Part shown: in pieces, positions 704 to 19,655 of the stretch
Numbering within the stretch: position 1 is the stretch's first letter
Layout: the number at the start of each line of letters is the position of its first letter
Source of the DNA: Rodentolepis nana
Taxonomy: Eukaryota; Platyhelminthes; Cestoda; Cyclophyllidea; Hymenolepididae
Length of the DNA stretch: 20,267 nucleotides
Direction: 5' to 3'
Assembly: GCA_900617975.1 (NCBI GenBank)
Contig: UZAE01012922.1
Span: forward strand, 1 to 20,267
Notes under the pieces: generated by a model
Databases searched by the model: none
The model's input: only the letters and a program-made list of their open reading frames with translations
Told to the model about the DNA's origin: nothing
Position numbers and translations under genes: made by a program

Positions 704-1408
704 TACAATGGCAAATTTCCATTAGTTAGGAAAGAAACTGGTCTCTCAGATTTTGTTGAAAAGTGTCAGAATGGTTTTCTTGTCTTTTGGTCCCATACAA
801 ATTAGAAATTCCGGTTGAATACCGTCTTTGCCAGGAGATTTCTTGCACTTTAGCTGTTTTATCCCAGCATTAAATTTGCAAGGTCGGAATGGTTCAATAA
901 GTATATTATTTGGTGTTGCTATGTCTTTCTTAATTTCACCAAACTGTCTTACTTGTATCTTTAAATCTCTTGAAGATTTTCTGACAAAAGAGTTTTCCCT
1001 TTTATTGTGGGAATAGAACCTCTCAAAGTAGTTAGCCATTTCGGAGTCAGTGGTAAGCAATTTGTTGCTTAAGCCTATTGGTTCTTTCTTGGATCTTTCT
1101 CTGTTGTTTTGGAGGTTTCTCAGAAATTTTAAAGTGCTTTGGCCATCATTTTGATAGTTGATATTTGAGATGAACTTGTCAAAGGAAGTGCGTTTAGCTT
1201 GTAAGATGGCTTGTCTTAGGACAGCTGTTTGTCGTCTCCAGGCTTGTACGTCTTCAGTTCTTCCAGTCTGATCAGCAGTGATGCGAAGGGCGTCCCTTTA
1301 TCTTTCCAGTTCCTCAAGGTGTTTAGACCAAAACACTCGATATTTTTTATTCTTGTCTCTGAGAATAGTTTTCTTTGCACATCTAATCATAATATTCTTG
1401 ATTTCATT

Positions 1409-1490
1409 GCAAAGTTTGTCAGGATGTTGGTTGAAGTTGAGTGGACTGATCGCAAAGTTTGTCAGGATGTTGGTTGAAGTTGAGGGGACT
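1409..1490. repeat. 43-bp tandem duplication in the LINE
   Basis: The run from GCAAAGTTTGTCAGGATG onward at 1409 recurs at 1452 with one or two differences (offset 43). On the minus strand it duplicates a FNQHPDKLCNE-like stretch between endonuclease and RT and shifts the frame. Confidence 0.85.
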
Positions 1491-1498
1491 TCCATTGT

Positions 1499-1575
1499 CT
1501 AAAAGGTTAGTGAATCTAGACCAGTCAGGCTTCTATTCTCTAAAAGGTTAGTGAATCCAAGCCAGTCAGCCTTCT
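1499..1575. repeat. 41-bp tandem duplication in the LINE
   Basis: CTAAAAGGTTAGTGAATC at 1499 recurs at 1540, and the following CAGTCAG-containing segment is repeated with substitutions (offset 41). It directly adjoins the 43-bp duplication. Confidence 0.8.
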
Positions 1576-1755
1576 TAAAGTTCCATGATAGCTTAGTTGG
1601 CACTTTCCATGTCATGCTTTTGCTGCCGATGATAATATTTGCAATGCCTGGTTTGTGACCAGAACCAGGATCGTCAATTATTTTGCGGCGTGTATGCTCG
1701 CTGATGTTGCTTAAAACCAGAATTAAGTCAGGAGTTTTTCTGGCTCCTTCAAATT

Positions 1756-3891: not shown

Positions 3892-4047
3892 ATGAGTGTC
3901 ATTCTCTTTGCAATTACCTTGCTGCATTTAACTGCTTCCCTTTCTCTAGAGGGCCCAGCTCGGCCGTATTCAAATTGTTCGAAAATTGTGTCGACACCGA
4001 CTGGCAAAACAGAACCTTTAATATTTGAAGTAAAGACAGAATCAAGC
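3892..4047 (+). CDS. Secreted protein exon 1 (signal peptide)
   Basis: ATG at 3892 begins 52 codons ending TESS before a GTACGT donor (phase 0). An in-frame TTG upstream at 3871 is not needed: the ATG places a hydrophobic stretch, VILFAITLLHLTASL, immediately at the N-terminus. The first Cys (NCSK) and first sequon are in this exon. Confidence 0.75.
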
Positions 4048-6054
4048 GTACGTATATATTAATGCGCAATCATTTTATTTGTTTTTATTTTCAGAGACTC
4101 ATTGTCCTAAATAAAATAACACAGACTTTTGATATAAATATACAAAACGACCGTTGTTATGCCAATGGCGAATCGATCGGAGAACCGTGTACTAAACATA
4201 TTGGTAATATTATTTTCTTAGATTTTACAACTAACCTTTTCATCTTAATCATAGATTACCTAAATATAACAATTGACGATGTTACAAGATTCGATGAACT
4301 TCGTGTCCTAACAAAGGACCGCGTATGTATCGTCAAATTTGTTCCGAAATGTCAATTCAATTCTGTTTTACCAGGTGAGATATGCAAAAATTGAATTAGC
4401 AAGTTGCTATGGGCTAATAAATTTTAAATACCAGTGACTTCGAATTTTGCGTTATTTGCAGGATATTTTATGCCCCAAGTGTCCTTTCCGTTTGCTAGAT
4501 TTGAGAAAGGACAGAGGTCTGTTAAAATAAACCTTTCTATCAAGGGAAGAAGTTCCGTTGTCGGAGTGAGTTTATTTTCATTTAAATAAACAAAATTTCT
4601 TTAAAAATTTATTGCTATGAATAGTGATTTGAATTAATTAATTTTTCATTGTAAGAANATTCTCTTTGCAATTACCTTGCTGCATTTAACTGCTTCCCTT
4701 TCTCTAGAGGGCCCAGCTCGGCCGTATTCAAATTGTTCGAAAATTGTGTCGACACCGACTGGCAAAACAGAACCTTTAATATTTGAAGTAAAGACAGAAT
4801 CAAGCGTACGTATATATTAATGCGCAATCATTTTATTTGTTTTTATTTTCAGAGACTCATTGTCCTAAATAAAATAACACAGACTTTTGATATAAATATA
4901 CAAAACGACCGTTGTTATGCCAATGGCGAATCGATCGGAGAACCGTGTACTAAACATATTGGTAATATTATTTTCTTAGATTTTACAACTAACCTTTTCA
5001 TCTTAATCATAGATTACCTAAATATAACAATTGACGATGTTACAAGATTCGATGAACTTCGTGTCCTAACAAAGGACCGCGTATGTATCGTCAAATTTGT
5101 TCCGAAATGTCAATTCAATTCTGTTTTACCAGGTGAGATATGCAAAAATTGAATTAGCAAGTTGCTATGGGCTAATAAATTTTAAATACCAGTGACTTCG
5201 AATTTTGCGTTATTTGCAGGATATTTTATGCCCCAAGTGTCCTTTCCGTTTGCTAGATTTGAGAAAGGACAGAGGTCTGTTAAAATAAACCTTTCTATCA
5301 AGGGAAGAAGTTCCGTTGTCGGAGTGAGTTTATTTTCATTTAAATAAACAAAATTTCTTTAAAAATTTATTGCTATGAATAGTGATTTGAATTAATTAAT
5401 TTTTCATTGTAAGAAAATAGTGAGAAATCAATGTGCTTATTAACAATATAATTAATTAACTTGCGCTTCAAATTACATTGCCTTACATAATAATTTTGAT
5501 CTTCTAATACAAATAATGAATTTCATACATTTTTTCGTGCTTTTAGTGAAAATTTCAACTGATTTATTAAATTATGATATAAAGAAACAGCTTTAAATTT
5601 GGTTATATAATCATAATTATTCTTTTCATTAAGATAAGTCTACAGAAGAACGGCATGCCTTTTTGTGAATGGAAGGGCAATATTGTTGAACAGCATATGT
5701 CTCAAGGCAATTGTAGTGAGTCTTATTCAATCTCATTAGCCATGTATTTCAAGCTAATATAAACACAAGATTTTGTTTCTTAAGAAAACTTTACTGAAAA
5801 TGCGGAAAAGGATCGGTTGGATTCCACATTTGAGTATCATCGAGCTGGAAAGGAAACTAGAACGAATTTCTTTTTCATATCCACACCACATATCAATAGC
5901 TCATTTTTATCAATCAGTGTCTACTGGGAGATAGGTGGTATGCCAATTTTGCATTATCATTACATATGCTATTTGATTTGTCTCAAAGCATGTGTTCTAT
6001 CTAGGTACGTCATCTGACATACTGGAATGTGAAAGTAAGTTATCCTTTGTTTGA
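3892..6054 (+). CDS. Unrecognised secreted/ectodomain protein gene, seven exons (gene span)
   Basis: Spliced exons 3892-4047, 4095-4203, 4255-4374, 4462-4565, 5646-5715, 5785-5937 and 6005-6054 join in one frame and give about 253 residues. All donors are GT and all acceptors AG. The protein opens with a signal peptide, MSVILFAITLLHLTASLS, cleaved probably near residue 18. No later transmembrane helix is visible. There are eight cysteines in the mature part (in NCSK, DRCY, EPCT, RVCI, PKCQ, PFCEW, QGNC, LECE) and four N-glycosylation sequons (NCS, NIT, NFT, NSS), which points to the secretory pathway. The C-terminal SVYWEIGG...ILECE faintly resembles the last strands of ML/NPC2-like lipid-binding domains, but I would not assign it. 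The middle exons are present twice (see the duplication). I do not recognise the family. Confidence 0.7.
4095..4203 (+). CDS. Secreted protein exon 2
   Basis: It follows a 47-nt intron ending TTTTATTTTCAG. It encodes RLIVLNKITQTF through GEPCTKHI with two cysteines and ends in phase 1 at a GTAATA donor. Confidence 0.75.
4255..4374 (+). CDS. Secreted protein exon 3
   Basis: It follows a 51-nt intron ending AATCATAG. It encodes DYLNITIDDVTRF through FNSVLPG, with two cysteines and the NIT sequon. The donor is GTGAGA, phase 1. Confidence 0.75.
4462..4565 (+). CDS. Secreted protein exon 4
   Basis: It follows an 87-nt intron ending TTATTTGCAG. It encodes YFMPQVSFPFARFEKG through GRSSVVG with no cysteine and ends in phase 0 at GTGAGT. 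Confidence 0.75.
4853..5323 (+). CDS. Second copy of secreted protein exons 2-4
   Basis: Exon copies lie at 4853-4961, 5013-5132 and 5220-5323, each offset by 758 from the first set. Exon 4 ends and exon 2 starts in phase 0, so splicing the first exon 4 to the second exon 2 would keep the frame and give a protein with a duplicated 111-residue segment (about 364 residues). The partial exon 1 copy at 4659-4805 lacks its start codon and any acceptor. If the duplication is an artefact, only one of the two sets exists. Confidence 0.6.
5646..5715 (+). CDS. Secreted protein exon 5
   Basis: The acceptor is GATAAGTCTACAG. The frame entered from exon 4 (phase 0) reads KNGMPFCEWKGNIVEQ and QGNC, then a GTGAGT donor in phase 1. 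The upstream AG at the same site would run into a stop, which fixes this acceptor. Confidence 0.65.
5785..5937 (+). CDS. Secreted protein exon 6
   Basis: The acceptor TTTGTTTCTTAAG is followed in phase by NFTENAEKDRLDSTFEYH through SVYWEIGG, carrying sequons NFT and NSS. The donor is GTATGC. No cysteine is present in this exon. Confidence 0.68.
6005..6054 (+). CDS. Secreted protein terminal exon 7
   Basis: The acceptor TTCTATCTAG is followed by GTSSDILECESKLSFV and a TGA at 6052-6054. A possible internal donor (GTAAGT at 6035) would permit splicing to a candidate exon at 6670, but the AATAAA soon after the stop favours termination here. Confidence 0.55.
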
Positions 6055-8312: not shown

Positions 8313-8646
8313 AATAGTTAATTAATTAATATCAAATGGCAGGCGTTTTGATTGCTATCATTAGCCCTTAAGTTGACTTCAGGCTTCGCAGAGGGGAGGA
8401 GGAACAACAAAGTGAAACAAGTCGAGGGGGAGAGGGGGAACAAAAGAGAGTTTCAAAGATGTAAAAGAGACAGACACAAAAGTGGATAAAGGTGAGGTGA
8501 GTACTGTGGAATTAGTCGAATATGAAATACAATGGGGTGAGGGAAGTTTGAAGTCAGAAGTCAACTGCCAGTTAATAGACTTTTTCGCCGTATGAGTATA
8601 AGTTGCCTAGGGTGCACTACGTGGAGGTAAGTCTATCGCACACCCC
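8313..8646 (-). mobile_element. Ribozyme-headed SINE-like element, copy E1 (near full length)
   Basis: On the minus strand the copy starts at 8646 with the ribozyme block, continues through a pyrimidine-rich body (about 230 nt with CTGTCTCTTTTACATC-like runs) and the conserved 3' block CAAAACGCCTGCCATTTGAT, and ends in an ATTAATTAATTAA tail. Length and order match E2, E5 and E6. It has no protein coding capacity; the open frame at 8379-8564 is a by-product of the body. It lies in the presumed intron just before the first recognised intermediate-filament exon, antisense to it. I found no clear target-site duplication. Confidence 0.85.
8575..8646 (-). ncRNA. HDV-like ribozyme, copy R1 (mutated)
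   Basis: From 8646 downwards: P1 GGGGTGT pairs with GCACCCT, J1/2 is GCG, P2 is ATAGACTT with AAGTCTAT, L3 is TCCACGT, and J4/2 is GGCGAA, the same as in hepatitis delta ribozymes. Changes likely to weaken it are AGT for GGT in P3, AGGCAAC for GGGCAAC in the P1.1 strand, and a G to T change in P4. P1 and P2 are intact. Confidence 0.75.
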
Positions 8647-8832
8647 AATATAGGCGAAATAATTTACCCAAAACGACCAATCTTGGAAGAGAGGGTGACA
8701 ACGATATTCAAATCCGTAGAATTATAGTATCGTTAAGTGGTATGAGCCAAGGAGGCTTTTCCTCCTAAAAATCTAAATAATAGTGTGATTTGCACACACA
8801 AGACTACTGTAATGCAAAAAAAATATTTGTAG

Positions 8833-9019
8833 GCTTCGCTTAAAAGACAGTCAAATTGCTAACGACCAAGAGCACTTGCAAAGCCTCACTGATCAATTGA
8901 AGGTTGCAGCGAGCGAAGCCGCGGAAATTCAGCAGCGTTGTACTAAGATGGCGGAAGAAAGAGCCAAAGAAATTCAGGAATTTAAGCATCTCCAGGAGCA
9001 GCTTAAGGAGGTCTGTTTG
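8833..9019 (+). CDS. Intermediate filament exon: coil 1B, first part
   Basis: It follows the acceptor ATATTTGTAG and starts with one base completing a split codon, then LRLKDSQIANDQEHL, through KMAEERAKEIQEFKHLQEQL. Heptad-like spacing of L/I/A runs throughout. Two in-frame donors are possible: GTATGT after 9019, taken here, or GTCTGT after 9010, which would drop VCL. Both keep phase 0. Confidence 0.82.
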
Positions 9020-12000
9020 GTATGTTTATCACGCAGATTATATAATGTCACTTGCTTCCTTAAATAAGTAGCAGTTTATAATGAAGGACAATCAATTTTA
9101 GAAAAATGAAAGGCTTACAGTGGCTCACCACGCAGCTGAAACTGATGCAAGAATTCTCAGAGAAGAAATGGAACTTCGAAAGAGGGTTCAAAATGCTGTA
9201 AGTTTTTGCGCATATCTTGCTTATTTATAATAATAAAGAGAATGAGGCCCTACCCTTAACAGAAATGTTTAGCATAAAAAACTGAAACCATTCTTTCCTA
9301 AATTCTTCTTTTTGTGGAGTTCTTTATCATTTATTTATTTATTTCAAATGACAGGTGTTTTGATAGTTATCATTATACATTTTGCTGACTTTGGGCTTCA
9401 GAGAGAGAAGGAGGAACATCAAAGTGACAAAATGTCGAGAGGAAGGACAAAATAATGATTCACAAATGTGAAAGAGACATACAGACAAACAAAAAGCAGA
9501 GAAAAGAAAAGATGAGTACTGTGGAAGAGGTCGAATATGGCATACAGTGGAGTGATGGTAGTTAGAAGCCAGAAATCAACTTCCGGTTAATAGACGTTTT
9601 GCCGTATGAGTATACTTTGCCAAGGGTGTACCATGTGGAGGTAAGTCTATCACAAACCTTACCTTCAAATATAACAAATGCCTGTAGCAAAGTTGTGGGA
9701 CACTCCATCAATGACCAAATAGAAATATTGCTATAGAATATTACTCAGAAATATTTAGCTATTAATGTTCATACGAATCATGGTAGAGTTATCTGATAAC
9801 TAATCGCTTTTCCAAACATACACTTCGCTATCAATATACGTATTGAATAAACGTATTCCGTGCTACACGTCTATTTCCCTTATAGCTGGGCTATAGCTTA
9901 GCTTGTTCTGGGAGTCTAGCTAGATGCTTGAGAATCTGCCATAGAGATTTCTGAGTCGGTCAGGCTTTACTAGAGTAGCAATCCGCTACAAATTAAAATT
10001 GCAAAAAGGTTATATGTTCAAAAGTATAATCTAGTTAACTAACAGATAAAAAGTGCATTTATTTATAAATTTTCCTATGATAAAACAAAAATTCAAATCG
10101 AAATGACAATTTAAATCAATTAGAATTGAAATGAAATTATTATATATATTAAATAAGTTACACTTTCCCGTTTTTAAGGAACTGCCAACTTTGAAGCACT
10201 GCTTCTTTCTTTTAGAATACTAACATATGGGAGTTTTAAAAAAATAGAATGTAAACAAAATATCAATGTAATATTTATGCAAAAAATGTAAACAATATTT
10301 TCAAACACAGAATATCCTATTCTGCTCCATNTTTTTTGCCGTATGAGTATACGTTGCCCAGGGTGCACCACGTGGAGGTAAGTATATCACACACCCCAAA
10401 AGTAATTCTTGAGGTTCAGCCAAAATTTAGTTGTATACCAATCCGTTACGCGATTATTAGTATTCTTTCGTACCATCCAATTACGTTTTCTAATTTAATA
10501 TACTTCAATTTTCGCACCCATTTTAAAATAGAAACGCCCTCTCTCTCACACATTTCTAGCCTGGGAAGAGATTGTCACCATCTATGGGCAAAGCAAGGGT
10601 AGTAGAAATAAAAAAATGATTCTTTCTAGGATAGAAGGTAACATTCTAATGTGAGATAATCGTTATCGATAGCTACTATTTCAAAATACTGTGGAAAAGG
10701 TATCTATCGGGGGTGCGCGATAGACTTACCTCCATGTGGTGCACCCTGGACAACGTATCTTCGTACGGCAAAAAAGTCTATCACTCGGTATTTAAGGGAT
10801 AATAAAAAATAAATAATAATTTGTGTCAAATGACAGGCGTTTTGATAGATANAAATGCGCTAAAGCTAATTAAAAATTTACATTTGTTTTATTTTAAATA
10901 TTTTCCATGTGCCAACATTCATTTATATCAAATTGCAGGCGTTTTGGTAGACATCATTAGCCCTTTAGTCGACTTCGGGTTTCACAGAGGGGAGGAGGAA
11001 CATCAAAGTCTCAAAAAAGTCGAGAGGGGAACAGAAAAACAATTCATAGATGTTAGAGAGACAGACAGACGGAAACAAATGTAAAGATAAAGGTAAGGTA
11101 AGGTGAATACTGTGGAAGTGGTAGAATATGACATGTAGTGTGGGTAATGGCAGTTTGAAGTGCCAACTGCCTGTTTATAGACTTTTTGCCGTATGTGAAT
11201 ATGTCGCCCACGTGGAGGTAAGTCTATCTTGCACCCCATTTATTCACGGATAAACGGAAGCATCATAAATTCAGGCATCATTTCTTTTTTCAGAGAATTT
11301 TGCGAGAATATTTGCAACCAGACTTTTTGTTTAATTTCTTCCCTTTTCAAAGGCACTAAACCAGACAATGGAATAATAAATTTAGTAAAAAATATGGTCG
11401 TTTGATAGCCGCAGGACAAACACGACTTGCTTTAAGCACCACAACTGTATTTACTTAAAGTGTCGTTTCCTGGTTTCAAAGACGAAAATATTTGTCTAAA
11501 TATGACCTAAGGACTCGCAATAAATTTTAGTTTCTTCTAATTATTCGACCTCTCTACCTTTCATTACCTTAATGAACTTAAAGTATTTATATTTATTTAT
11601 ATCAAATGGCAGGCGTTTTGATAGTTATCATTAGCCCTTTGGTTGACTTCGGGCTTCACAGAGGGGAAGGAACATCAAAGTGGCAAAATGCCAAGAGGGG
11701 GGGGGGCAGAATAATGATTCACAGATGTAAAAGAGACAGACAGACAAAAAGGCAGAGAAAAGGTAAGATGAGTGTTGTTAAAATTTGTTCGAATATGACA
11801 AACAGTGGGGTCATGATAGTTTGAAGCCAGAAGTCAACTACCGGTTTATAGGCTTTTGCCGTATGAGTATACGTTGCCCAGGGTGCTCCACGTGGAGGTA
11901 AGTCTATCGCACACCCCGTACTTTATCATAATGATTAGTTAAAGTCAGGAATGCTTTATTTCATTTAAAGCTAACTTAACAATTAAATTTTTTAAGATGC

Positions 12001-15000
12001 TGGCACAAAAAATTTCTTAGGCAGTAAATAGAAGGTGGGACTGATCAACCAGGGACCGAGGTTGGCATTCAAAGAGATTGCACGTCCATCTTGTTTAAGC
12101 TCATAGGAATGGCTGCTCGATTAAGGGAAGAGAAATAAAATTCTGGCACTCTAAGAAATTGCATTGACATTATACGCCCTGCTCTGAATTTGGCCTAATT
12201 GCAGACAATTATTTCATTTTACTAACAACGACTCATTTAAAACCGTTACAGCATTTAAAGTCCTTCTGCTTTTGAAAGAGCAACGTGAACTGTTTTTTGT
12301 GAACTTGACAAACTTTTCATAATATACGAATTTGATGGATCATAATTCGTGTACTCTTTATTATATACTTTGTTCTTAGATGCGAATGCCAAAGATCAGT
12401 TATTAAACAGTTTAATGTCCATTGTGGGAACTCCATTCTACCAATTTTGCCTTCGGTCAACGTCATCTTCCAATTTCGTCCTTTGAGTACATAACATTCA
12501 ATTGAATCGTATATTATATTCTTGGTTGGTCTCGCATCGGAGAAAGTCTATGCGAGCAGGGATTTTCACATACCTGGTCATTGCTATTATTCACCAGGTT
12601 TCAGCAATGCGTCATCAAGTAATATACTGATAGATGTGCAGCCGGTGCCATCTATCCAGTGTACACGTAGTGCCAACATGTGCCCTTTTAAGAGAAGTGG
12701 GGTCTAAATAAGCATTTTTAGAGATTACCTATTTTGGATAAGGCATTTTAACTCTTAAAAGCCAGGATTATTTATTAAAAAAATGCACCCAACCGCACTC
12801 ACGCGCGTCACCCAGTAGATTGATACCGCCGACGTGATGAGTTTTGGTGGAGCATCAGGCGAAGGCTACCTGGACGTATTGAACACATTTCAAATGACAA
12901 CAGCGCCTTCTCTTACAGGTCTAATACCAATGGAACTTGTTTTGAAAGAGGACTGAACGGTCCCTAGGGCGGTAAGGCTGGAAAATGTGTCGAGGAATAG
13001 TAGTGCCACGATGGCAATAATACAAGTTATTGTCAGAAGTCTATAAATTTTCTACGTAATTTTAATTCTGAAAATTAGCAGTCAAAACTAGTTTTGCAAC
13101 TGCATCCTTTTTAATATTCAATAACAAGAAATGCGGTTAACAGGTGGTATCAAGAAGGGAGGTTAATTGAAGAAGAATAAGAAGAAGTGTATTTCTCCCC
13201 ATGAAAAATGAATCTATAACTGATTTGATTGCCGACTAATCCTTCGTCCTCATGATATGAGCCACTACTTTAATAAATTATCGCTCTTTACTGACTCACC
13301 AGTAGGCAAGCCCTGTTTTTGCTTAATGAAAACAAGATTCAATGTTCCAACTCCAAACCTTAGAATTTTAGATTATTTTCGGTGCATTAACTCTTAATTG
13401 CGTTAAACGTGTTCTAAATTTTCGATTAGAGTACTGCAACTCTTGAATTTAAATTTGAAAGACCACCAATGAAGAATTTATCGTTGTTTACATCGATAAA
13501 CAAGTCTGTCAATCATTTAGCCCAGATCCAATTCTCCTAAAGTACTTTTGAAGGAGACAGTTGTTTGAGCCACAAGTTTTCCTTCTTCCCAGAATCGGAG
13601 AAGTTGTAGCATTCTGGGTAATGTATGGAAGAATCATATCTCGAGGTTTGTGAGGGTTGGTAAAAGTGTTTTGTACCGCTTTACCAGCATATTGTAAAGA
13701 GGGAAATTTACAAACGACACGCCCCTATTCTGTTGGGTAAAGACCGGCAAGTTTATTTCTATTAAAATATATGTTACAGGAGATGAAAGAACTTTCTGCA
13801 TTAGTGCAGCGTGAGTCAACTCAGGAAGCTGTAGCTATCTTTCGGACAGAGATTATGCAGGTTTTGCGAGAAATTCAGCTGGAGTATGAACAACGTTTAG
13901 AGGCAGCCCGTGCAGACATTCACTCAGCCTACGAAGTAAAGGCACGTGTGCTTCGAAAAACAGGGCTGACAAGTGGAAATGTGGGGGTGGGAGGTCAGAC
14001 ACCCTCTGATAAAAATCTCCAACAACTTGTCGATGAGCAGAAACAGAAAATCAGAATTCTAGAAGAGAATGTAAGTGCCTATTAAAAGCCTTACTTAAGT
14101 TGCCTATTAATATTTTCCAGTAATATAGCACCCCTATTTTGATCTTCGCATTTTTACTCAAGTTGTATTTGAGTACGTGGACACCTTTTTAGTTCCTCTT
14201 AATACCTTATCTTCTTTTGGTAAATTTAGTAGGACTTTGAGAGGACGATGGCATAACCAGACTTCTCCACTCAAAATTCTAAGTTGCGACTGCTTTTCAG
14301 GAAAAAATTTTAGAAAATAATACTTGGCTGTTTCTTCTAGGTGTAATAAAGGCGTTCACGAACTCATCAATAAAGGTGATAACAGCAATTATGGAAGCTG
14401 CTCAGTGCTCCCTTAATGCCTTGAAAAAAATCAGGCACGAACTGAAGAATTACAATGGGGGGAGAATGAAGTAATTGAATTAATTAGTCATATCACAACC
14501 CTTCATATTATTTTTAATTGGACAAGGTAAAGCGGATTAAGAAATTAAGAGCTCTTGATCATGAAACCAACGATTTCTGCATGCTAAATATTGTTATTAG
14601 GGTCATGTTTCCCTCAAAGGATTCAAGCCTCGAGCAGTTACGAGCATAAATTTATCGGCATGGAAGTTGCCGACACTGGTCCTTGAAATGGAAATATTGT
14701 AGTTGTTTCATCGGAGAACAGAAATTCCATAACAAACTTCATTAATTTCGGAAGAATAGATGGGAGTGTCGCTCGCATCTCTGAATATTCAGAGCATATA
14801 TCATTCAAAACTAATAGATTTCCTCTTTTAACACCGAAGAGAGTAAGACGAAAAACCTAAATTACCATTCTTGCTACCAAGTGATATAGTAGTGAGGCCA
14901 CTTCATGCCTTTCTATGGAAATGGAAAAACACTATACACCAACTTAATGTCTGTGATACGAACGTGAACTGTGTTTACTTGGGTTGAATATTGGGAATAA

Positions 15001-19449: not shown

Positions 19450-19655
19450 TCACTGTCGTAGGCGGATTGCTACACTGATAAAGCATTGACTAACTCAGAA
19501 ATCTCTGTGGCAGATTCTCCTATATCTGGTTAGACCCCCAGAACTAGGTAAGCTACAGCCTAGTTATAGAGAAAACAGGCATATCACATGGAACACGCTT
19601 ATTTGGGACATATCGTTGTGAAAGTGTACTTGCCGGAAGGTTAGTCATATTTCAC
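19450..19655 (+). repeat. Dispersed repeat family 2, copy B
   Basis: Inverted partner of 9790-9992. Blocks include GTAGGCGGATTGCTACACTG, AACTCAGAAATCTCTGTGG, CCCCCAGAACTAGGTAAGC, and GGAACACGCTTATT. Coming from two places about 9.6 kb apart and diverged, the two copies are a repeat family rather than one long palindrome. Confidence 0.75.

Follow-up and report, generated by a model that had tools for sequence, protein, structure and literature searches.

We consider it highly probable that predicted self-cleaving ribozymes of the HDV fold form the exact 5′ ends of a tapeworm LINE and of its non-autonomous, SINE/SIDE-like partner. The evidence comes from the assembly of Rodentolepis nana (107.1 Mb, 4701 contigs) and from one 20,267-nt stretch of it, contig UZAE01012922.1, which was analysed over its whole length and which we call the window. 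Translated with the flatworm code, the mitochondrial COX1 of this assembly lies nearest to tapeworm proteins, with a top match at 91% and the top named matches in Pseudanoplocephala crawfordi (89%) and in species of Cloacotaenia, Taenia and Versteria (87-88%), in keeping with a cyclophyllidean host. As judged from sequence comparison, this is a real and very large retroelement-borne family of HDV-like ribozymes in a tapeworm, for which cleavage is a prediction.

One copy in the window, at 10710-10782 on the + strand, has every helix formed and all 25 pairs present under strict structural scoring. When the structure of the alignment is mapped onto the window, its parts fall at these positions:

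10710-10716 with 10741-10747 (+): P1, 7 bp, first pair G.U
10719-10726 with 10775-10782 (+): P2, 8 bp
10728-10730 with 10738-10740 (+): P3
10732-10733 with 10748-10749 (+): P1.1
10754-10758 with 10763-10767 (+): P4
10769 (+): predicted catalytic C (C75 of HDV), from alignment to RF02682 and RF00094; column 62 of A1
10710-10793 (+): LINE-type ribozyme (10710-10782) followed by 11 nt from the LINE 5′ region, up to 10793, where the LINE match ends

A sequence-only reading of this DNA had proposed P1, P2, P3, P4 and the catalytic C at this place, and all of these helices are confirmed by structural scoring; its 8-bp length for P2 was right, but the ribozyme ends at 10782, one base beyond the 10781 that it gave. 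The catalytic C after P4 and the conserved bases of L3 and J1.1/4 are present both in this copy and in the family consensus. With a model built from the family, the copy scores 106.4 bits (R1). It is nearer to the LINE (97.6% to the LINE 5′ end at L062 over 84 nt) than to a SINE copy (90.3% over 72 nt), and by sequence similarity we assign it to the LINE type.

The family-built model recognises six window copies (55-106 bits), in agreement with the at least six related copies of the earlier reading, which had credited the motif with all five helices; these are complete in just one of the five copies scored, that at 10710, and its five relatives nearby are decayed. The copy at 10332-10397 was left out of the structural scoring because its sequence runs into an N at 10331. 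In a blastn-type comparison to SINE and LINE copies, all five relatives are closer to the SINE type. The window also holds fragments of the two elements, so that its further inventory reads:

8318-8646 (-): two-ended SINE-like copy; ribozyme 8563-8646, with P3 and P1.1 each one pair short
9328-9660 (-): two-ended SINE-like copy, older; ribozyme 9578-9660, decayed
10332-10397 (-): SINE-type ribozyme fragment, 98.5% to a SINE copy over 66 nt, with the window's best RF02682 score (42.1 bits); 3′ strand of P2 missing, N at 10331
10819-10851 (-): SINE 3′ end fragment beside the N at 10852; 84.8% over 33 nt to SINE positions 292-324
10917-11237 (-): SINE-like copy; ribozyme 11165-11237, without the 3′ strands of P1 and P3
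11590-11917 (-): two-ended SINE-like copy; ribozyme 11836-11917, with one P3 pair broken; RF02682 35.1 bits
2-842 (-): RT-region fragments of the LINE family of the ribozyme, rearranged and partly repeated; blastn 85-95% to L045 in several pieces, and tblastn
1301-1747 (-): fragment of the endonuclease region, from this LINE family as well; 75.2% identical to L059 over 447 nt

Element copies break off at the single N at 10331 and at that at 10852; these are perhaps collapsed assembly gaps.

An Rfam cmscan of the window matches RF02682 (HDV-F-prausnitzii) at 10712-10781 (+; 34.3 bits), 10326-10397 (-; 42.1 bits, E 6.5e-5), 11848-11915 (-; 35.1 bits) and 8575-8644 (-; 31.0 bits), and RF00094 at the first three of these places (26.2-34.1 bits). 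The gathering scores are 44 bits for RF02682 and 50 bits for RF00094, and no window copy reaches them (best RF02682 score 42.1 vs 44). The covariance-model scan suggested with the earlier reading therefore stays below cut-off in the window itself and succeeds in the genome: a genome-wide RF02682 search, with 61 of 25,212 first-look candidates scored, places 59 of the 61 at E<=1e-3 and 37 above cut-off. Five of the best six genome matches were examined, and all five come from the same ribozyme family. Within eight loci, half of the ten RF02682 hits exceed the cut-off: four SINE copies at 45.3 bits, in which every pair of P1, P3 and P4 is formed, and a fifth at 44.5, with LINE-type copies under it at 34.3-37.6 bits. 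RF02682 had no match in 14 control genomes, which are prokaryotes as far as named, and a 27-base pattern from the ribozyme core had no exact match in viral_contigs and genome_contigs, collections without animal genomes. Our structural descriptor, a custom pattern set against 200 first-order Markov windows as the null, hits one place in the window and three in a 48-kb genome sample, with 0 hits in the 200 Markov windows; the one place is the 10710 copy, and the other window copies are missed.

Could the resemblance be due to chance, or could the repeats be ordinary ones that lack ribozyme activity? The sub-threshold scores in the window, together with the lack of covariation described below, would fit such a reading, to which we give next to no credence. 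Chance resemblance is ruled out by the above-cut-off genome copies, the empty Markov windows and control genomes, and an insertion boundary, marked by target-site duplications (TSDs), that coincides with the predicted cleavage site.

Of 88 hits, 86 lay within bounds, and the 80 that were distinct and without N were aligned to build the model in which variation within the family was followed. Paired cells make up 89.3% of 1974 over these copies, as compared with 31-40% for slid partners and 89.0% for shuffled letters; the near-equality with the last figure means that the pairing reflects shared ancestry. Covariation does not rise above shuffled columns (5 two-sided-change pairs vs 3.4; 125 of 500 shuffles). 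Nor is the ribozyme region more conserved than the body (0.79 vs 0.73-0.80) in 27 unselected copies of 51 found by the body alone, some of which have lost the 5′ end, lowering the ribozyme figure. Both outcomes are expected if most differences arose after insertion; function is not demonstrated by selection in the covariation and conservation comparisons. Intact structure was found in 8 of 32 copies chosen without regard to the ribozyme.

The short element is non-coding and about 310 nt long, with the HDV-like ribozyme at its 5′ end. Across 34 aligned copies from the window and other loci it begins abruptly at the ribozyme's first G (G1), with varied sequence upstream; its 3′ end is conserved and runs into simple repeats, for example (ATAA)n. 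Among 39 two-ended SINE-type copies, the 3′ motif lies 237-395 nt from G1, and in most of them 290-318 nt. The base preceding G1 is variable in copies not chosen by search, and is often T in the best hits, where the query itself favours it.

Another key observation concerns the TSDs, which were sought in the 48 of 88 ribozyme hits with a recognisable 3′ motif, a flank match score of at least 9 being required. TSD matches of 9-15 nt are present in 21 of the 48: 14 end exactly before G1, three are one base off and four lie at 3-6 bases, and some copies are surrounded by perfect TSDs of 13-15 nt. Thus 17 of the 48 lie within 2 nt of the predicted cleavage site, as compared with a mean of 0.13 and a maximum of 2 in 60 shuffles with re-dealt flanks; the four window copies included in this test have no TSD. 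Since most of the TSDs end at the base before G1, the inserted RNAs either started at the predicted cleavage site or were copied up to it.

A start of transcription at G1 would yield identical insertion boundaries. The first ~75 nt might then be an internal promoter, the HDV-like fold being incidental or both roles being combined as in Pr77, a trypanosomatid hallmark that the accessible text of PMC4035085 reports as both promoter and ribozyme. We find this improbable, as it leaves unexplained a complete double-pseudoknot fold that starts at that very base; moreover, ARAGORN found no tRNA in nine sources, and no Rfam family besides RF02682 was found at E<=0.01 in eight loci. By these same ARAGORN and Rfam searches, no small-RNA head (tRNA, 5S, 7SL) with a Pol III promoter was recognised, and we set aside a classical SINE. 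A ta-TRIM or LTR edge is ruled out by the 9-15 nt TSD matches and the simple-repeat 3′ tails. Cleavage just before G1 remains our preferred reading, and what characterizes a SIDE is present: the element starts with the ribozyme of the LINE 5′ end, finishes with the LINE 3′ end and lies between TSDs. In a short copy at L055 1646-1729 (-), the ribozyme is of the LINE type, a SINE-like 3′ motif lies within 460 nt and the TSD is a perfect one of 14 nt; perhaps this copy represents a second short subfamily derived from the LINE.

The partner was sought through its reverse transcriptase (RT): by tblastn, 20 of 30 RT loci examined (of 150 listed) belong to one LINE family, and in 11 of these 20 the SINE's last ~60 nt lie 3′ of the RT in the same orientation, the other loci ending too early. 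The order in L045 is ribozyme, endonuclease start, internal deletion, RT (PF00078, 6e-32), RNase H (PF00075, 1.5e-12) and 3′ tail; in L059/L093, which have no RT, it is ribozyme, endonuclease (PF14529, 2e-15), RNase H (5e-14), a C-terminal segment whose only match is a weak zinc-binding one (zf-RVT, E 0.077), and 3′ tail. Each of these copies starts at the ribozyme, finishes with the 3′ end that the SINE shares and has an internal deletion. R2 retrotransposons have a C-terminal restriction-like endonuclease and are not known to carry an APE endonuclease or RNase H; R2 is ruled out as the partner by the domain order of L059, with its N-terminal PF14529/PF03372 endonuclease and PF00075 RNase H. 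In domain order alone, the LINE presumably resembles the L1Tc/ingi clade. The best E-value for its protein is to an R. nana protein; named relatives with at least 64% identity come from R. nana and Hymenolepis microstoma, and full-length relatives rank second and third at 46% and 42% (the latter from Diaphorina citri).

The LINE 5′ end together with its ribozyme was also used as a query; this search yielded 1766 candidates, 40 of them as scored matches. The ribozyme core, which this query requires, is present in all 30 loci examined, the sequence upstream of it varies, and 14 of 29 are structurally intact (L045's second retrieval left out). Between the SINE and LINE types, ribozyme identity is ~89% (over 66 nt, with window 10332-10397 set against L062). 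When the L059/L093 LINE copy is set against the SINE, the match is confined to SINE positions 1-73 and 268-324; in other SINE/LINE pairs the 5′ match extends to about position 107, and about 160-190 nt between the shared ends have no match in the LINE copies compared. Since only the end regions match, the SINE keeps the LINE's two ends, its body being otherwise unmatched. That the ribozymes are retroelement-borne, as was proposed from the sequence alone, is thus supported by the above-cut-off copies, the G1 boundary with its TSDs, and the LINE 5′ and 3′ ends in common.

The scale of the family was estimated in two ways. The 48-kb sample, made up of twelve 4-kb stretches at regular contig numbers, contains 10 copies in 5 of the 12, which scales to about 22,000 per genome with a wide error because copies cluster. 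Chance copies in other loci number 24 in 226 kb, or about 11,000 per genome; the 24 include one LINE 5′ end, in a locus brought in by the RT of that LINE. By these extrapolations the genome probably holds about 10^4 copies of the short element. Pairwise identity among the 39 two-ended SINE copies, which were in part selected by ribozyme similarity, has a median of 0.81 and reaches 0.96 in the closest pair, so the family looks old, with younger branches.

Such ages bear on present activity rather than on the identity of the motif: source elements may once have used the ribozyme, the family now being inactive and its present copies decaying fossils. The median identity and the intact ribozymes in a mere 8 of 32 unselected copies are compatible with this reading, which we nevertheless regard as very unlikely, in view of the perfect 13-15 nt TSDs around some copies and the closest pair at 96% identity; from these two observations, part of the family is young.

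How might a family with such ends spread? The short element has no recognisable small-RNA promoter head, so that its RNA is probably made within a longer read-through transcript. The nascent 5′ end would fold and cut just before G1, the structure predicting an RNA that starts GGGGUG. From the shared 3′ ends, we infer that the LINE protein would recognise this end in both elements; the RNA would then be copied into a new site by target-primed reverse transcription, to which the shared 3′ ends, simple-repeat tails and TSDs all point. Cleavage before G1 followed by such copying would make new copies start exactly at the cleavage site; this boundary is observed, and cleavage is its putative cause. 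Under this model it is very likely that the ribozyme trims the element RNA before it is copied back into DNA and, by analogy, the family most likely works as in R2 SIDEs and L1Tc/NARTc. A bolder reading is possible, although we stop just short of favouring it: this would be one of the largest HDV-like ribozyme complements known, a ~10^4-copy SINE-like family in which a self-cleaving ribozyme replaces the Pol III promoter and which spreads by excision from host transcripts, as an animal counterpart of L1Tc/NARTc, and sense intronic copies could cut pre-mRNAs.

Around the ribozymes, the window has probable exons of an intermediate-filament-like gene at 13771-14085 (+; PF00038, E 0.0049, below cut-off), for which no relative was found in viral_contigs, and exon-like open stretches of the same probable gene near 8829-9010 and 9101-9199 (+). 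The retroelements would sit in introns of that gene, and of the six ribozyme copies five would be antisense to it. GGAGGTAAGT occurs in the ribozyme complement at window 8623-8632, 10374-10383 and 11894-11903 (+); we take it to be a good match to the 5′ splice-site consensus, and intronic antisense copies might therefore serve as splice donors. Elsewhere, window 3901-5375 spans a direct tandem duplication of 758 bp whose copies do not differ over the 300 nt compared; each duplicate holds the same 110-aa ORF, and the one scanned matches DUF5727, with no homolog found. An inverted pair at 9846-9962 and 19487-19603 (117 nt, 77% complementary) shows no relation to the ribozyme family in the searches made.

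Short elements that join a 5′ HDV-like ribozyme to a LINE 3′ end are described, in the accessible parts of the respective papers, as SIDEs of Drosophila rDNA (PMC3414825) and as NARTc, RIME and SIDER of trypanosomatids (PMC4035085), several ribozymes of the latter having been shown to cleave. A 2021 review of HDV-like ribozymes lists mosquito, Drosophila, sea urchin, lamprey, lancelet, nematodes, an insect virus and a bacterium; its accessible text contains neither flatworm nor schistosom- (PMC8256844). Within the literature covered, HDV-like ribozymes combined with SINE lead to trypanosomatid papers, and combined with platyhelminth to an R2 survey (PMC5035012); self-cleaving ribozyme with tapeworm leads to engineered hammerheads in a nematode, most subscription papers being outside this coverage; and no title on HDV-like ribozymes and retrotransposons names a tapeworm. 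The ta-TRIM of taeniid tapeworms is likewise an abundant, short, non-autonomous retroelement, but of LTR type, with paired LTRs (TG...CA) and TSDs of 4-5 bp, neither of which the ribozyme element has; the word ribozyme does not occur in the accessible text of that paper (PMC4558846).

The tapeworm ribozyme is like RF02682 and RF00094 in that the alignment spans the full model and takes in P1, P3, P4, the CCUC loop, GGCAAC and the GGC catalytic strand, and unlike them in its small P4 (5 bp, 4-nt loop) and its retroelement context. The R2 SIDEs and R2/R1 hybrid SIDEs of Drosophila insert in 28S rRNA genes and are cut from the rRNA co-transcript (PMC3414825, accessible part), whereas the tapeworm element is dispersed, its partner is a LINE with N-terminal endonuclease and RNase H, and its body has no LINE match. 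If the family is what we propose, HDV-like ribozymes occur in bulk in tapeworms, which offers a natural variant library for structure-function work and would test the genome-wide success of ribozyme-headed short elements without their own promoter; because the insertion boundary matches the predicted cleavage site, release from a co-transcript could be tested directly in laboratory tapeworms. With the L1Tc/ingi and NARTc/RIME/SIDER elements, as far as the accessible sources describe them, the tapeworm pair has in common a 5′ HDV-like ribozyme on both LINE and short element, TSDs and dispersed copies; the trypanosomatid hosts are protists, and that of the tapeworm elements is an animal. Ribozyme-headed short elements are a known kind, and the tapeworm host, the abundance and the unrelated SINE body look new as far as literature searches reach: the surprising part is the scale, and the SINE/LINE pair in an animal.
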